A stretch of DNA of 64,000 nucleotides from Zygaena filipendulae (lineage: Eukaryota; Arthropoda; Insecta; Lepidoptera; Zygaenidae), in assembly GCA_907165275.2 (NCBI GenBank), contig OU015653.1, positions 11,748,001 to 11,812,000 of the forward strand. The letters run 5' to 3'. Each line of letters begins with the position of its first letter. The first letter of the stretch is position 1. Of this stretch, positions 39,709-54,402 are shown piece after piece. Made by a program: the position numbers and the translations under genes. The notes under the pieces are model-generated. The model did not search any database and was not told the origin of the DNA. It saw only the letters and a list, made by a program, of their open reading frames with translations.

Positions 39709-42700
39709 TCATTTGGCAATCAGTTTAGCCCTTTTGGTCCTAATGCCGGACTGCAGCGGTTTGTTTTCATCACTGTAACCCCTCAACTTTCTTTTGACAG
39801 ACCTCATTTTGCTTAACTTGTCCACGTCTTTTATCGGGTTGTGTGAGCCGCTGAGCGGCAGTTCCTCTTCGATTGCGTCATTGAGTAACATAGCCTCTTT
39901 GTATTCGTTCAAAGTGGCATCATCCACGATGGATGTTCGATTGAAATCGTCAGTGTTGTCTATAACCCGGCCGAAGTGCAGTGCGTTGTGTAAGCTGACC
40001 CTCTCGGACGGTCCGAGCGCATCCCCAATCGGGTCGGGTTGGATCTCCTGGGGCGAGAGTGTCTCGACTGCGAGTCGATCCACTATAGTGCCTTCCTCAG
40101 CGACCGGGAAGTGTTGAGCGTAAATTGATTCCAACTTTTCCACTATTATATTCTTCGGTGTCGTTAGACTGCAACATAATTCATTTGTCGTTAATAAATG
40201 ATTTTGAAAATTTGTCAACGGTTGCTGAACGAGGGACATATTTTAGCCCACTACACGACGTGACTGAACCTACGTTAATATTCTCAATTAGGAAGATACC
40301 TGTTAAAAAATGATGGAGAATTCCATCATTATATTATAGACCTTAGTATAAACAGTATAAATAGGAGTTCTAAACGCTTATTGCTGCGGTCCGCGCTTAG
40401 ATAGCAAGCTTCCGAAAGCTAAGTTTAGCAACACTGGTTAACAACAGCTAGTCATCAACAAACGACATTAATTCTAATAATAATAATAGGCTAGTTTCCT
40501 AATTTTTTTTTTTAAGTCCGTTTTGTAGGTTATTAAAAAATATTGGACACGTATTTTTTTATTTTTTATGTAACCAAAAAATAACGGAGATATATCAAGT
40601 CGAAATTTCACATGACGTCACGCCTCGCTACAGTTTGTTCGCACGTTATAGCGAGCTGTGACATCACGAGTCCCCCACCCTAAACTTTAATGCGCTTTAT
40701 CTATGCATATTTCCATTATTTTAAAAAAGCGAAAAATACGTGTCTTTTATTTTTTTATTATCTAACTGACGGACTAAATAGAATTTTTATTTTTTTTACC
40801 CAGGAAACTAGCCTATTATGATAATAATTCGTCGTTAGCTTATAAAATAGGCGCCATCACTCACTCGAAATGGTCGCCGTCGATGACGCCGTAGGAGTGC
40901 AGTAGCTTGAGCAGTTTGGCCGCATTGCCAGCGCTCACGCCGAAACGGGCCACGAGCGCGCCGCCCGACAGCCGCGGGCGCGGCGCCGCGCGCGCCAGCC
41001 ACCACAGCACGCGCCGCAGCATGCACAGCGACTGCAGCCCGAGTCAGAGCTTTACTACTCAGGCACCGACAACGTGCGCCCCGCCCCGCCCCACCCCGCC
41101 CCGTGCTCACCTCCCGGAAGCTGCGCACGAGGCGCGGGTTAGTGAGGCTACTGCCGCCCCGCCCCGTACTCACCTCCCGGATGCTGCGCACGAGGCGCGG
41201 GTCAGTGAGGCTACTGCCGCCCCGCCCCGTACTCACCTCCCGGATGCTGCGCACGAGGCGCGGGTCAGTGAGGCTACTGCCGCCCCGCCCCGTACTCACC
41301 TCCCGGATGCTGCGCACGAGGCGCGGGTCAGTGAGGCTACTGCCACCCCGCCCCGTACTCACCTCCCGGATGCTGCGCACGAGGCGCGGGTCAGTGAGGC
41401 TACTGCCGACCCGCCCCGTACTCACCTCCCGGATGCTGCGCACGAGGCGCGGGTCAGTGAGGCTACTGCCGCCCCGCCCCGTACTCACCTCCCGGATGCT
41501 GCGCACGAGGCGCGGGTCAGTGAGGCTACTGCCGCCCCGCCCCGTACTCACCTCCCGGATGCTGCGCCCGAGGCGCGGGTCAGTGAGACTACTGCCGCCC
41601 CGCCCCGTACTCACCTCCCGGATGCTGCGCACGAGGCGCGGATCAGTGAGGCTACTGCCGGCCCGCCCCGTACTCACCTCCCGGATGCTGCGCACGAGGC
41701 ACGGGTCAGTGAGGCTACTGCCGCCCCGCCCCGTACTCACCTCCCGGATGCTGCGCACGAGGCGCGGGTCAGTGAGGCTACTGCTGCCCCGCCTCGTACT
41801 CACCTCCCGGATGCTGCGCCCGAGGCGCGGGTCAGTGAGGCTACTGCCGCCCCGCCCCGTACTCACCTCCCGGATGCTGCGCACGAGGCGCGGGTCAGTG
41901 AGGCTACTGCTGCCCCGCCCCGTACTCACCTCCCGGATGCTGCGCCCGAGGCGCGGGTCAGTGAGGCTACTGCCGCCCCGCCCCGTACTCACCTCCCGGA
42001 TGCTGCGCGCGAGGCGCGGGTCGGTGGGGCTGCGCTTGGCGTCCTCGTCGGCGCAGCGCGCGCAACAGTGCGCGGTGATGCGGGCCGCGGCCGCGGGCGT
42101 CACGCCGAAGCACGCCGCGTGCTGCCGCGTGTTGCAGTATCTAGATCAGCCGTTACAATGCTGCTTGATAACTAAGGTGTACAGTGTTACTATCACCACA
42201 GACAATATAATACTCTATCACTAAGTAAGTAGATAAGTCATTATCATTTTAATTTGAAGAACTATTTTGTTTTATTTAGATTTTATTTATACAAACTTAT
42301 TATGCTTGCTTGTCTTCCTAAATAAATAAATCACTTTGGAAAGGTCAAATTTTCTCCAATGCGCGGTTCTGTATGGACCTTAAGGACTCGGCCATAATTT
42401 TGATGTCACTACTTTTACCTACTTTTGAAAGTACCTTCTGCAAGATGGACAACATACCGGCACGTAATGAAAGCCTCGTCGTCAGCGGTCCCTTCGTATT
42501 TATTGCACGGGCACTGCAGCTCCAGGAAGCTTTGTTCCGAACTCCCATTCTCAGGACCTAAACCTATATTTGAACGTAGATAAGCAATAACATGTTAACC
42601 CACTAAATTAAGTTATCGATACAGAACGCTTTAATGATAGAGAATGTTTTTTAATTATGCCTTTACCTTATTACATTGTTTAATTATGTAACAAAATATT

Positions 42701-45700
42701 GAACATAAAAAAAAAATTGACACAAAATATAATATAATTTTAAAACACGAGTTACTAAAAAAATTTCCAGTGTGGGTTAACACACTATTGCTTATCTATT
42801 TTCATTTAGAGACTATTATAGAGATAACTTTCAGAACTAAAAAGAATATCAGAATAGGTACAGATTGGCGAAAATTAATAAAACTTAAAACTTAAAGATT
42901 ATTAACGTTATTGTCATACGCACTTGCTATGTCCTCTTGTTCCATTTGCGTCATCATTGGAGGGTTTTGTGAAGGCTGCAAGGGGGATACTTTATTAGAA
43001 ACAAACGAAAGCATGTGTGAAGTCCATCACACCGCACTAGGCCCTCATCCTGCCTGTCATCTGCTATAAGAGATTGACGTTTTGAAATCTTGTAGACAAT
43101 ACTGTTTGACAACAACACAAATATTAGCATTATTTTCATAGACACTCACAACGGCCTCGTGGCTGCCTCCAGCGTCGAACCTCACATAGGAGTGCGCGGC
43201 CATCTTGTGGTACGGCGTCTCCACTGAGCCCAACTTTACGCATTTTACCCATTGCGACTCCAAGTGATCTTCCGGCTCGTCGGTGGATTGGAAACCCGGT
43301 GGTTGGTAACCCTCTGGAGCATCTAGGTATATAATATGTTGTAAGTACAGAATACCACACCAAAAACGATAGATACATCCCACAGTTTTTTTACTGGAAG
43401 AATCGTCATGTAGAAAATTAAAACCCTAAAAGTTACAGGGAGATTCATATATCAGGGTCCATGAAATAAAACGTGCCATCAATGATATTATAAGTAATTG
43501 CGTGGCATCGATTGCAACCAAACGGCGCCGGTGAGTAAGTAGGTATGTCGGCCTGCTTTAATGTGTCCAATCACCAATGTCGTTTTTGGGCAAAAAGGTA
43601 CCTAGGTAATGATATAATTTAACCCTTACACCACCATGTTTTGGTAGCCTTAATAAGTTAAGGTTACCAAAATATGGCCATTGCATCCAGACCACACGCT
43701 TTAGACATGATTTCTCCTAACTGTTGGGAATGCTTATCTATTTATTATCATTTAATCTAACAAATATAAAAGTCAATGCAGTGGTTTGATAATAACGAAA
43801 TATCACGTTTCTGGCCGGTTTGACCGTAGGAGGATGATCCTCTATGTGGATGTCGGTGAAAGGGTTAAAGACTTGCAATCGATTTTGTCACTACCATTTT
43901 AGGTAACTGAACCATTAAGACGCGACGGTTAGTTTATACCTAGATAGATGCTAAATATTAACGTTGTATATAACTCGCCTTCTATCTAATTTACGAAGTA
44001 TAAGTACTTGCCTTCATTGTAATACAGACGGATGCTAACTTCGCATTGGGACGGTAACGTCTGTTGGCGTTGCTGTAGAAAGACCACGCAAGTTCTTATC
44101 ATTGACAGAGTGCTTTTTTCGACGTCCTCTAAAGTGTACTCAACGGAAGGTTCCATCCTGTCGCGACCCTTCGAGTGGACATGGCTCATGGTCACCGCAT
44201 CCTTGTTATATTTGTACTCGAAAATGTGGTACTCTATAAGATTGTCCGGTTTGCATTCGTCTTCGTAGAAACACAGAGCTAAACGGTGGAGCTGTTAATA
44301 ACAAGTTATTATGTCACCGACCAAATTCAGTTTTAGGCTGAATTAGTTTTACCTAGGCATGTACCTAAGGTTTTTGATGATCGACAGAGCAAAATTTATG
44401 TCACAGGGGGAGATAGAAAGGGGTAATTTTTATCCCAGAATTGTAGCTGGAACTCCCAAATTAACGCGGGTGAAACCGCTAAACAACTTAATAGGTACTT
44501 AATAGCTAAAAATCCGGCTTCGCCGATTCACGTTATAGACGTAACATTGTGTGAACTGTGAAGTCGTAAATCACTATGGACAAACGATGTAAAGAAAGAC
44601 GCAGTATATTTATTACTCTGAGGTTAAAGTGATAGTCAACACCACACCTACAAGTAATGGGTACTGTCGACGGCATCCCTCTGGAGGAAGTTAATCACTA
44701 TGTTTACCTCGGGCAGACTTCAGCTAGGTAGGGACGACTTCGAGAGGGAGATAGGAGGATTCAGTTGGAATGGGCGGCATTTAAGGAAGCTGCGTCAGGT
44801 CTTCTCGTCGCCTATACACCTCAAAATCTAAAGACAAAAGTGTAATAACCAGTGCGTCCTACCCGTGATGACCTATGGAGCCGAAACGTGGACACTGACG
44901 GTGCGACTAGTCCATCGGTCATCTCAAAGAGCAATGCTCGGAAAGGGCAATGCCTGGTGATTCTCTGGTTGATAGAATGCGTAATGAGGAAATTCGCCGG
45001 AGAACCAGTCACCGACATAGCCCTTCAAATTAGCAAACTGAAGTGGCAATGGGCTGGTGACACCGGTCGCAGAACCGACAACCGCTGGAGCAAGCGAGTT
45101 CTGGAGTGGAGACCACGCGTAGGCAAGCCTAGTGTAGGACGCCCCCTGCCCGGTGGAGCGACGATCTGCGACGGGGGGGCTGGTAGCGACTGGATGCGGT
45201 TGGCTGAAAATCGGGATAGGTGGCGAACTCTTGGAGAGGCCTATGTCTAGTAGTGGACTGCTGCAGGCTGATATTGGTAATGATGATGAATGATTTTGAA
45301 AGGAATGACCGCTACACTAGGCCTATTTTAAAACGCATCGATTAATTAAACTGACTTCAAAAAAAACACAAAAATGCACTAAGTCGGTAGGTAGATACAC
45401 TGAAAAGTTAAAAATAACAAATAATTATTTTGTAGTCAATTAGCGCCACATTTTTCTTTAGAACTCATCGAGTAATTAAACTGACTTCAAAAAACAAAAA
45501 TGCACTAACTACACTAAAAAGTTAAAAAAACAAAATATCTACCTACCTACCAATTCAATTCGAGCGGGCTAGTCACCAACTTTAAACCGATCAGTAGGTA
45601 GATATACCTACTCTTTGGGTAGTAAAACGTAGTGGTTATATACTCTTTGGGTAGCACACAGTACACACCAATAATTACGTGCATTTTTGTCTTTCGAATT

Positions 45701-46318
45701 AAATCGGTATTTTGTTATTTTTAACTTTCTAGTGTAGTGTAGTTTTTTTAAGTCTTTAATTTTTTTTATGAAAATTATGTGAATCCCCAAACATGGTTGA
45801 CAACGGTTTTGAATAAACTCGTAGGTTTTACCTAAATCAACACTTACCGTTGGTAGTTGGTTCATGATTATCTAAAATCACAAATAAAACGCATGCATAT
45901 ACCTACCAGTAAATTATTACCAACTTACATATTTTTTGTCAAATGCATCGAAAGCCTGTGTCAGTGCAGTGCTTAGAAACTGAGCAAGTTCGTCGCCACA
46001 TTTTGTTCTCAATATTTTCAACTTTAACCCATGAAAGTACTCAATCTTGAAACAATCTTGAGGAAATATATTTTTTATATACGTAATAGTGCTCACAGCA
46101 ACCACCGTTAATTGTTTCATGAATTTAACGGAACTTGTGTAATTCTCTATAACCCCCTTTGGGAATATTTTACACCATTCTGATACTGCCTGAAATAAGT
46201 ACAAATAAAGTATGTAAGTGCGAATTAAGTTAAGTGCGAATGTATTAATTAGTTACCTTCAACTTGTATAATTATTTTATTATATCTTTACAACCTGCTT
46301 AGTAGCTGTCGAGGTCAT
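39709..46318 (-). CDS. HORMAD1: Meiotic HORMA-domain protein (Hop1/HORMAD type)
   Basis: Chromosome-axis protein of meiosis that supports double-strand breaks and synapsis in known orthologues. Nine minus-strand exons: 46318-46295, 46189-45929, 44291-44012, 43322-43150, 42975-42924, 42557-42458, 42140-41993, 41031-40865, 40168-39709; all phases join, giving 554 aa. Seen: HORMA domain (QLTVVAVSTITYIKNIFPQD, KKYLHRLALCFYE, EYHIFEYKY, SIRLYYNEDAPEGYQPPGF, SVETPYHKM), then a Cys4-His-Cys3 PHD-like finger (CPC, CRYC, HAACFGV, CCARC) split over two exons, then a winged-helix segment (SLCMLRRVLWWLAR to LLKLLHSYGVIDGDHF), then a 153-residue basic-ended tail with KRKLRG. This matches the chromatin-binding layout known for Hop1 relatives. 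Odd: one GC-AG intron after 44012, and a donor-carrying minisatellite after 41993. Orthology to vertebrate HORMAD1 versus HORMAD2 is not resolved. Confidence 0.92.
40488..40814. mobile_element. TGACGTCA-bearing palindromic MITE, best-preserved copy
   Basis: Flanked by TA and delimited by AGGCTAGTTTCCT and AGGAAACTAGCCT. Arms share AAGTCCGTTTTGTAG, TATTGGACACGTATTTTTT and the inverted AATACGTGTCTTTTATTTTT. TGACGTCA at 40613. It lies between the last two HORMAD exons. Confidence 0.85.
41105..41992 (-). repeat. 63-bp minisatellite carrying splice donors in the HORMAD gene
   Basis: Fourteen 63-bp units (donor starts at 41105, 41168 and so on every 63 bp to 41987). On the gene strand each unit holds CATCCGGGAG|GTGAGT, that is, the last codons of exon 42140-41993 and the first intron bases. 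So the exon-intron border itself was amplified. The unit is 21 codons without a stop in the gene frame (begins VSTGRGGSSLTDPR, ends RSIRE). The acceptor is at 41031/41032. Using the first donor gives an intron of 961 bp; using the last gives 79 bp and adds 294 residues. Units are nearly identical. Long ORFs here on both strands follow from the stop-free unit. Confidence 0.95.
42578..42797. mobile_element. 220-bp MITE, copy 1 (HORMAD intron)
   Basis: Ends AGATAAGCAATAACATGTTA and TAACACACTATTGCTTATCT are inverted. A second copy is at 51024-51246. It begins 20 bp upstream (on the gene strand) of the acceptor at 42557. Confidence 0.9.
43619..43868. mobile_element. piggyBac-type MITE with TTAA target duplication
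   Basis: TTAA at 43619-43622 and 43865-43868 enclose a 242-bp element with CCCTTACACCACCAT at the left and GATGTCGGTGAAAGGG at the right (inverted, imperfect). No ORF. HORMAD intron. Confidence 0.8.
44400..44490 (+). mobile_element. Helitron-like element fragment
   Basis: TTTTATCCCAGAATTGTAGC, GGAACTCCCAAATTAACGCG and GGTGAAACCGC, with the terminal CTAG lost. Confidence 0.5.
44640..45300 (+). pseudogene. RTE-type LINE 3' end, degraded
   Basis: Conceptual pieces ISKLKWQWAGDTGRRTDNRW, RVLEWRPRVGKPSVGRP, DWMRLAENRDRWRTLGEAYV and the nucleotide phrase TATGGAGCCGAAACGTGGAC are typical of the RTE reverse transcriptase C-terminus in Lepidoptera. It ends with TGATGATGA-type repeats near 45290. Frameshifts upstream. 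Inserted in the HORMAD intron on the opposite strand. Confidence 0.85.
45320..45545. repeat. Direct duplication in a HORMAD intron
   Basis: TTAATTAAACTGACTTCAAA and AAAATGCACTAA recur about 125 bp apart. No coding capacity. Confidence 0.6.
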
Positions 46319-52488: not shown

Positions 52489-54402
52489 ATGATAACTCGA
52501 AGATGGTTCCATCCTCTACTGACAGGAGTGGAGGCAGAACGGTTACTGATGGAATGTGGTCGAGATGGATACTTCCTGGCGAGGCCCAGCATGAGTAACA
52601 AAGGTGACTTTACTCTGTCAGTGCGAAGAGGCAATGAAGTAACACACATAAAAATTCAGAACAATGGCGAATTCCTAGACCTTTATGGCGGAGAAAAATT
52701 TGCCACTCTCTCTGAACTTATTCAATATTATATGGAGAATCAGGATCAGCTGCGAGAAAAAAACGGCAATGTTATCCGACTGAAGACTCCTCTCAACTGT
52801 GACGACCCCACCACTGAACGTTGGTACCACGGGCAATTGACTGCAAAAGAAGCTGAACGAATCATGTTAGAAAACGGAAAAAATGGCTCATTTCTCGTGA
52901 GAGAATCGCAACGCCAGCCCGGAGACTTCGTGCTCTCCGTTCGTACCCGAGACCGAGTCACGCACGTTATTATTCGTCGGCAAGACAATAAGTATGATGT
53001 TGGCGGTGGTAAGAAATTTGATGATCTTGTTAGCTTAATAGATCACTATCGCAATTTCCCAATGGTTGAAACAACAGGAGAAGTTTTGAGATTAATCCAA
53101 CCTTTTAATGCAACCCGCATCCAAGTTCAACATTTCCATACACGAGTAAAGCAACTACAAAAAGAAAATGAAGGTCCTATCGAAAGTATGGCATATAAGC
53201 AGGGCTTTTGGGAAGAGTTCGAAACTTTACAAATGATGGAAAACCTCCAATTGTTCGATAGAATGGAAGGATCAAAACCAGAAAATATAAGAAAGAACAG
53301 GTACAAAAATATCATACCATTCGACCACACACGGGTCGTGTTACGCGATATTCCTTCTGATGCCCCCCAAGGCTCTGACTATATCAATGCCAACTATATC
53401 AAATGTGATAGTATTGAATCTGGTTTAGATTCCCACGACTCTAATGGCAGTAATGAAAACGGCTCCTTTCAAGCTCGCGCTAGTACCCCATCAAAAAACA
53501 AAGAAAAGTCCTCTCCGAGTCATGCCGTTATTGTGACTGAAGAAAAAGTCAAAAGCTGTGTCAAAAGTATTGGAAATGGGACCCATAAGCTTATTCCACC
53601 TTTCGAGCCCAGTGTTCTTCCTTCAAATCCTTACTATGTAAACACGACGATACCAAAATCAGCTGTTGATGCCGAAAACGGGATCGCGGACAATGTGTAT
53701 AAAAAGATTTATATCGCCACGCAGGGTTGTCTTTCTACCACAGTATATCAGTTCTGGTCTATGATATGGCAGGAAGACGTTCGTATTATTATTATGACGA
53801 CAAAAGAAATAGAACGGGGAAAAGTTAAATGTGAAAAGTACTGGCCGGATTTGAACAAAACGGAAATAATAAAAAAGTATACCATATTTAACGAATCCGA
53901 ATCTTCGACGCAAGATTATACGTTGAGACGTTTTCTTGTCACGAAAAAAGATGAGCCCAATGTTAAAAGAACAATATATCATTTCCATTTTACCGCTTGG
54001 CCTGATCACGGAGTTCCGTCGGAGCCCGGCCGCGTTTTGAATATCCTTTTGGATGTCAACTATAGACTCCAGCAAATAATGACCGGAGCGAACCCGCCGA
54101 CGCAAGCGGTCGTGTGCGTGCATTGTTCGGCGGGCATAGGGCGGACGGGCACTTTCATCGTCATTGATATGATATTGGATCAAATAAGAAAAGAGGGGTT
54201 CGAATGCGAAATAGACGTGCATCGTACGGTGCAAATGGTGCGAGATCAGCGGTCCGGCATGGTACAGAACGAAGCACAATACAAATTCATTTATATGGCT
54301 GTTTTAGAATTCATTGAGACGTTGAAGCAAAGGGTGAGGTTAGCTACAGAGCCTCCGCTGGACTCGCCCCGCGCCAGATCGCACCCTATCCCATTTTTAT
54401 GA
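52489..54402 (+). CDS. csw: Corkscrew / SHP-2 tyrosine phosphatase
   Basis: Cytosolic phosphatase that promotes Ras/MAPK signalling downstream of receptor tyrosine kinases. 637 aa in a single exon: N-SH2 from [10 protein letters not shown] (phosphotyrosine Arg32 in FLARPS), C-SH2 from RWYHGQL (Arg138 in FLVRES), then the PTP domain from about residue 240 with [11 protein letters not shown], the WPD loop (Asp506) and the signature [11 protein letters not shown] (Cys546). The autoinhibitory N-SH2 surface keeps YGGEKFAT and Glu76. A Ser/Asn-rich insert at about residues 307-400 splits the PTP domain, as in Drosophila corkscrew and unlike vertebrate SHP-2. The start was chosen because MITRRWFHP aligns with the known SHP-2 start. 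The tail after the PTP domain is short (about 25 residues). No frame damage, so this is a working gene or a fully intact retrocopy. Confidence 0.96.

Follow-up and report, generated by a model that had tools for sequence, protein, structure and literature searches.

Tandem repeats lying over exon-intron boundaries go by the name of mirages and were reportedly described on Adh3 by Canestro and others in 2002, while a minisatellite in the human IFI6 (6-16) gene is said, after Turri, Cuin and Porter (1995), to supply multiple splice donors. The unit of the human IFI6 minisatellite is 12 bp long. According to the available portions of two reports, the mirages of amphioxus are tandem repeats over exon-intron boundaries, many of them with AG/GT signals, whose units of 10-160 bp are found in Adh3 (10-72 bp), PGBD5 (60 and 108 bp), the globins BflGb6 and BflGb9 (150-160 bp), and also troponin C (PMC3087553, PMC3902484). 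As far as these portions go, regular splicing appears undisturbed, judging from the Adh3 data and from RT-PCR of the globins, and mirage copies can be misread as exons by gene models (PMC3087553, PMC3902484). Variation of copy number between haplotypes counts as a further trait of mirages. In human segmental-duplication genes, variable minisatellites at exon-intron boundaries alter splicing, as stated in the accessible part of a survey that deals with recent human paralogs and novel introns, whereas the subject here is a donor array in HOP1 (PMC2812944).

The array lies in a window (the whole stretch of DNA that was analysed, 64,000 nucleotides) of Zygaena filipendulae, at the end of HOP1 exon 7 on the minus strand, where 15 GAG/GTGAG donors (the slash marks the junction) have their first intron bases at 41992, 41929 and onward to 41110. 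All 14 spacings between these donors are exactly 63 bp, and TRF delimits the repeat at 41094-42031 with a period of 63, 14.9 copies, 96% matches and a score of 1750; a repeat of this order lies far outside chance expectation. The 63-bp unit joins 39 bp of exon end to 24 bp of intron start, and the units carry the exon-intron boundary with its AG/GT signals, GAG/GTGAG being present at 15/15 donors, of which donors 1-14 read GTGAGT and donor 15 reads GTGAGC. The acceptor precedes 41031, and the intron measures 961 bp with the first donor or 79 bp with the last. The array and its surroundings are made up as follows.

41993..42031, minus strand: 39-bp exonic copy, with 3 to 5 differences of 39 from the units
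41111..41992, minus strand: array of fourteen 63-bp units, each of 24 bp intron start and 39 bp exon end, closing in GAG; a donor opens each
41105..41110, minus strand: donor 15 (last), GTGAGC
41032..41110, minus strand: 79-bp intron with the last donor, presumably the pre-amplification intron

All 15 donors are in phase 0 and the exon frame is open through every unit, so any donor would yield an in-frame product, lengthened by anything from 0 to 14 blocks of 21 residues, at most 294 residues in all, depending on the donor chosen. The initial annotation had read fourteen 63-bp units and one further donor, an intron of about 79 or 961 bp, and in-frame steps of 21 residues, and its anatomy and arithmetic proved exact. 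Among the other tandem arrays with a period of 15 or more in the 64-kb window, AGGTRAGY was found in 0/13. An array at 1741-2328 of the window has a 157-bp period and 3.7 copies, without the donor motif.

Like amphioxus mirages, the HOP1 array repeats an exon-intron boundary with AG/GT signals; unlike them, it belongs to an insect gene and has 14 units, all at one donor and all in frame, and it is known from sequence alone. As in the human IFI6 minisatellite, each unit holds a donor, but the use of extra donors is reported for IFI6, whereas the HOP1 donors are predictions and their unit is 63 bp. The earlier statement that no such system had been described was thus mistaken, since both the mirages and the IFI6 donor minisatellite are comparable structures, and the HOP1 array is a striking new example of known exon-boundary minisatellites, not a novel splicing device. 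Among the matches listed in the open-licence literature, none concerned a donor minisatellite of a lepidopteran or one within a HORMAD gene.

The host gene was modelled with nine exons on the minus strand (39709-46318), and the joined exons give a product of 556 residues. It is a predicted model, with exon boundaries set from homology and splice signals.

46295..46318, minus strand: exon 1, coding part MTSTATKQ, from homology to relatives' N-termini; donor CAG/GTTGTA, placement probable
45929..46189, minus strand: exon 2, HORMA domain, from homology and domain match
44012..44291, minus strand: exon 3, HORMA domain, from homology and domain match; GC-AG type donor AAG/GCAAGT at 44011-44012
43150..43322, minus strand: exon 4, HORMA domain end; its end is repeated in the Ostrinia, Cydia pomonella and Plutella models
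42924..42975, minus strand: exon 5
42458..42563, minus strand: exon 6, start of the PHD finger
41993..42140, minus strand: exon 7, 148 nt with the first donor; remaining PHD finger and first residues of winged-helix (wHTH) helix 1
40865..41031, minus strand: exon 8, winged helix
39709..40168, minus strand: exon 9, C-terminal part, basic end and stop codon

The product contains a HORMA domain (Pfam HORMA, 145.2 bits against a cut-off of 24) and a PHD-wHTH region that matches the solved HORMA-protein chains 9myp (1.2e-06) and 9mug (6.7e-06), and the initial description of the gene as a HORMAD with a PHD finger and a winged helix is upheld. Pfam PHD, PHD_2 and MarR_2 all score under their cut-offs in this product, and a Pfam search of the exon 9 frame gave no match. 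Homologue searches returned 41 and then 50 relatives in total, and the named organisms among them are lepidopteran. Bombyx HOP1 (P0005) is 53% identical to the window product over 99%. In a protein tree of the window HOP1 and 26/50 relatives, the window protein is weakly placed, pairing with Plutella at a support of only 90/69; its nearest relatives by tree path in this set are Ostrinia and Loxostege, and the highest identity is 57%. Because of the HORMA domain, the PHD-wHTH-like region and the lepidopteran relatives including Bombyx HOP1, the gene is called HOP1, and by sequence it is a lepidopteran HOP1, that is, a HORMAD with PHD and winged helix. The ortholog of the window protein in Bombyx mori, HOP1 (LOC101737689), with HORMA and PHD, co-localises with the synaptonemal complex according to the available text of its description (PMC10151401); the Bombyx protein is without the repeat, unlike the array-bearing window gene. 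At its end (41993-42031, minus strand), window exon 7 is 3 residues shorter than most aligned relatives, PTDPRLA being followed directly by RSIRE (three gap positions) where others have, for example, PTDPRLVALSAKKRE. Elsewhere in the window, 52489-54402 on the plus strand encodes, in one uninterrupted frame, a corkscrew/SHP2-like protein of 637 aa in which two SH2 domains are combined with a tyrosine phosphatase domain, and this frame is possibly an intronless copy.

As the make-up of the unit shows, 39 bp of exon end were duplicated in tandem together with 24 bp of intron start. Slippage or unequal exchange, accompanied by homogenisation, would then have expanded the array to 14 units; this mode of growth is suggested by the identical units and by a repeated two-unit block, since units 1 and 3 are identical, units 2 and 4 have a common change, and units 8, 9, 12 and 13 are identical. 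A homogenised interior with the cluster boundaries excluded is a trait of mirages, whereas edge unit 14 of HOP1 is not clearly more diverged, with 2 changes from the consensus, equal to interior units 4, 6 and 7. The flank downstream of the last donor differs from the first 24 bases of the unit at 5 to 8 positions.

An open frame together with divisibility by 3 was considered as a sign of coding function and rejected, as shuffled units are often open too: 54% of 3000 shuffled units leave the gene frame open, and the chance of both properties is about 0.18, divisibility of 63 by 3 being a one-in-three event. The real unit is open in 3/6 frames, and on the plus strand the array is also crossed by two frames that run from stop to stop, 426 and 437 aa long. 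Among the 14 units, 11 distinct changes were counted, 8 nonsynonymous and 3 synonymous, against a neutral mean of 68% nonsynonymous (P(<=obs) 0.74, a weak test with 11 changes only), and the changes look neutral and show no sign of coding constraint. Conservation of the donor 9-mer within the array, which 0/11 distinct changes hit, was dropped as an argument (chance P=0.18). A protein search that scored the 7995 best-word candidates gave no match to the array repeat at E<=0.001, and of the 50 relatives P0001 and P0002 alone have a six-residue word in common with the 21-residue block, which we take to be the exon-derived TDPRLV.

The relatives, 50 homologous protein clusters, were screened for internal repeats that match exactly over at least 8 residues, and the position of exon 3' ends in their protein models was judged from the window exon map and from unrepeated relatives. 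Exon-end repeats were found in 5/50 relatives' gene models, and by homology all 5 sit at exon 3' ends, although the numbers are small and annotation bias in such models is possible.

Ostrinia furnacalis P0001: 2 copies, exon 4 end
Cydia pomonella P0030: 6 copies, exon 4 end
Plutella xylostella P0047: 3 copies, exon 4 end
Cydia amplana P0043: 3 copies, exon 8 end
Mythimna separata P0026: exon 7 end, the donor equivalent to that of the window array

In Mythimna, Plutella and the first Cydia pomonella copy, the exon end is followed by VS, as GTNAGT would give, while Ostrinia and C. amplana are without VS there, and a donor-spanning repeat is suggested in these two by position alone. Of the exon-end copies in the Mythimna model P0026, 3 are in frame and 2 frame-shifted; this model stops without a winged helix, and P0050, on a contig of the same size, starts inside a copy and continues into the winged helix. 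Reconstructed by hand from both frames, the Mythimna unit would comprise 90 nt of exon and 38 nt of intron; its 128 nt are no multiple of 3, which points to an independent, out-of-frame array at the orthologous donor that seems to split HOP1 into two models. Plutella P0047 translates 35-residue repeats with V/VS, whereas the second Plutella model, P0041, has one copy. In Cydia pomonella, copies 1-2 of P0030 are of VVK type and copies 3-6 of VAK type; P0031, which is 98-99% identical to P0030 on both sides, has one VVK (upstream-type) copy joined straight to the next exon. P0031 has 539 residues on a 2489-bp contig, which therefore has no room for the introns of the gene. If P0031 represents RNA of an array-bearing allele, an upstream donor was spliced to the acceptor, with loss of the final four copies at the least; alternatively, it could come from an allele without the array. 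The Diatraea saccharalis model P0045 reads 15 residues beyond the equivalent exon 7 donor and then ends, without a repeat. Judged from HOP1 models alone, lepidopteran HOP1 is an apparent recurrent site of exon-end repeats.

Spacing between the last PHD cysteine and the wHTH arginine pair could be measured by pattern in 42/50 relatives and not in 8. It is 27 residues in 33/42, and the remaining nine values are 24, 24, 25, 26, 26, 29, 11, 91 and 128, where 11 (P0022) is a false early pattern match, 91 is the Mythimna array, and 128 (P0023) we take to be a frame-shifted Chilo model. In the window gene, the spacing would be 24 residues if the first donor is used and 318 if the last one is. PHD and wHTH are tightly packed in the solved PHD-wHTH regions, as far as the available part of their description goes (PMC12365614). 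In the AlphaFold model of the Bombyx protein (mean pLDDT 65.2, pTM 0.39; blocks 331-360 at 91-95), the exon junction, after residue 348, falls inside wHTH helix 1 (residues 344-360). A structural clash of long isoforms was dropped as an argument: in the model every unit would restore the exon's last 13 codons and the insertion would fall in the linker. The structural argument is given little weight because each unit rebuilds the 13 codons before the junction and a loop-out need not break the winged helix.

These observations argue for a donor-side mirage minisatellite in lepidopteran HOP1, with the array removed as intron from the first donor, a reading that we hold to be probably correct. The first donor would still close the normal 148-nt exon 7, making growth of the array nearly splice-neutral, and the later units, although their donors are perfect, would sit in the 961-bp intron. 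Use of the first donor is most likely, judging from sequence, because of the PHD-wHTH spacing, the neutral pattern of changes and the Cydia pair, and the undisturbed regular splicing reported for amphioxus mirages in the accessible parts of those papers offers a parallel (PMC3087553, PMC3902484). Leaky use of later donors would add 21n residues between PHD and winged helix, in frame because 63 is divisible by 3; in-frame isoforms are thus possible, and a minor isoform series at most is expected. Several points stand against this reading, among them edge unit 14, which is no more diverged than interior units 4, 6 and 7. The open frame and kept phase are what a coding array would need, and the Plutella P0047 and Cydia P0030 models, which are predictions, translate their repeats. 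In predicted U1 pairing, donors 1-14 reach -12.2 kcal/mol and the last -9.7, against -3.3 to -7.4 for the seven other donors of the gene, so that every unit should bind U1. Sequestration of donors by folding, in which the unit's CTCAC is able to pair with GTGAG, was also considered: donor 9-mers are on average 0.30-0.36 unpaired in the global fold and 0.0005-0.063 in the local fold (first 0.009, last 0.003), and since the first and last donors do not stand out, folding explains no donor choice.

Among competing donors the intron-proximal one is often favoured, as in DOK7 according to the part of the report available (PMC5585400), a preference that would favour the last donor and with it a main transcript spliced by intron definition over 79 bp, little under the gene's shortest other intron (105 bp), so that nearly all HOP1 would carry 294 extra residues. 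This is unlikely: none of the other 14 donors pairs with U1 as weakly as the last, the exon would reach 1030 nt, the spacing in relatives disagrees, and the one-copy Cydia sequence has the upstream and not the last copy type. The proposal of the initial annotation, a length-variable module in which many donors are used and 0 to 14 blocks of 21 residues are inserted between PHD finger and winged helix, selected or at least tolerated, can appeal to the divisible unit with its open frame and phase kept at 15/15 donors, to donors that are identical and strong in predicted U1 pairing, to the modelled rebuilding of helix 1 with any donor, to the translated Plutella repeats, and to IFI6, for which the available text reports three mRNAs, two downstream units also being used (PMC4526556). 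We nevertheless give it little chance, and the selected form in particular is unsupported, given the 8:3 neutral-looking changes (only 11), the near-constant spacing in relatives, the lack of a protein match among the 7995 candidates, the apparently out-of-frame Mythimna array, the one-copy partner P0031 of the six-copy Cydia P0030, the tight packing of PHD and wHTH in solved relatives, and the ease with which divisibility and openness arise together by chance.

A broader variant is quite unlikely, namely that exon-end minisatellites spanning a donor arise repeatedly in lepidopteran HOP1 (at one and the same donor here and in Mythimna, and at different exon ends in Ostrinia, Plutella and two Cydia) and that the in-frame array truly makes a graded meiotic HOP1 series, its linker growing by 21 residues per step with allele length. 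Processing of the units as 53-nt mini-introns or 10-nt microexons, with frameshifts and lower HOP1 output, is very improbable. Each unit does combine a donor with a branch-like motif, CTGAC (units 6 and 14 differ in it), and with an acceptor-like GCGCAG that ends 10 nt ahead of the following donor; the pyrimidine content at this acceptor-like site is 0.53-0.59 (4/14 units measured), similar to the 0.41-0.76 of the gene's eight real acceptors, and cryptic use of repeat splice signals has been proposed as a source of new introns in the work on amphioxus mirages (PMC3087553, PMC3902484). Yet the T content of the site is only 0.06-0.12, where the real acceptors have 0.24-0.71, no intron of the gene is as short as 53 nt (the others span 105-1637 nt, or 79 nt with the last donor), and a 10-nt exon shifts the frame. 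Tandem arrays misassemble easily, and one amphioxus mirage was apparently aberrantly assembled in the draft genome according to the available text (PMC3087553, PMC3902484), but a false array or false copy number is extremely unlikely here, as the units bear ordered private variants, the array lies between the right HOP1 exons, and exon-end repeats also occur in models from other assemblies; the exact unit count of 14 may be wrong.

The HOP1 array adds the Lepidoptera, and a core gene of meiosis, to the known range of exon-boundary minisatellites. Boundary arrays of this kind break gene annotation, as in Mythimna, where HOP1 appears as two models, and those of HOP1 bear on whether boundary duplications are splice-neutral. 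The recurrence across species within one gene is the interesting part of the finding, and the apparent recurrence at several HOP1 exon ends would amount to a natural experiment in how the spliceosome chooses among 15 near-identical donors.
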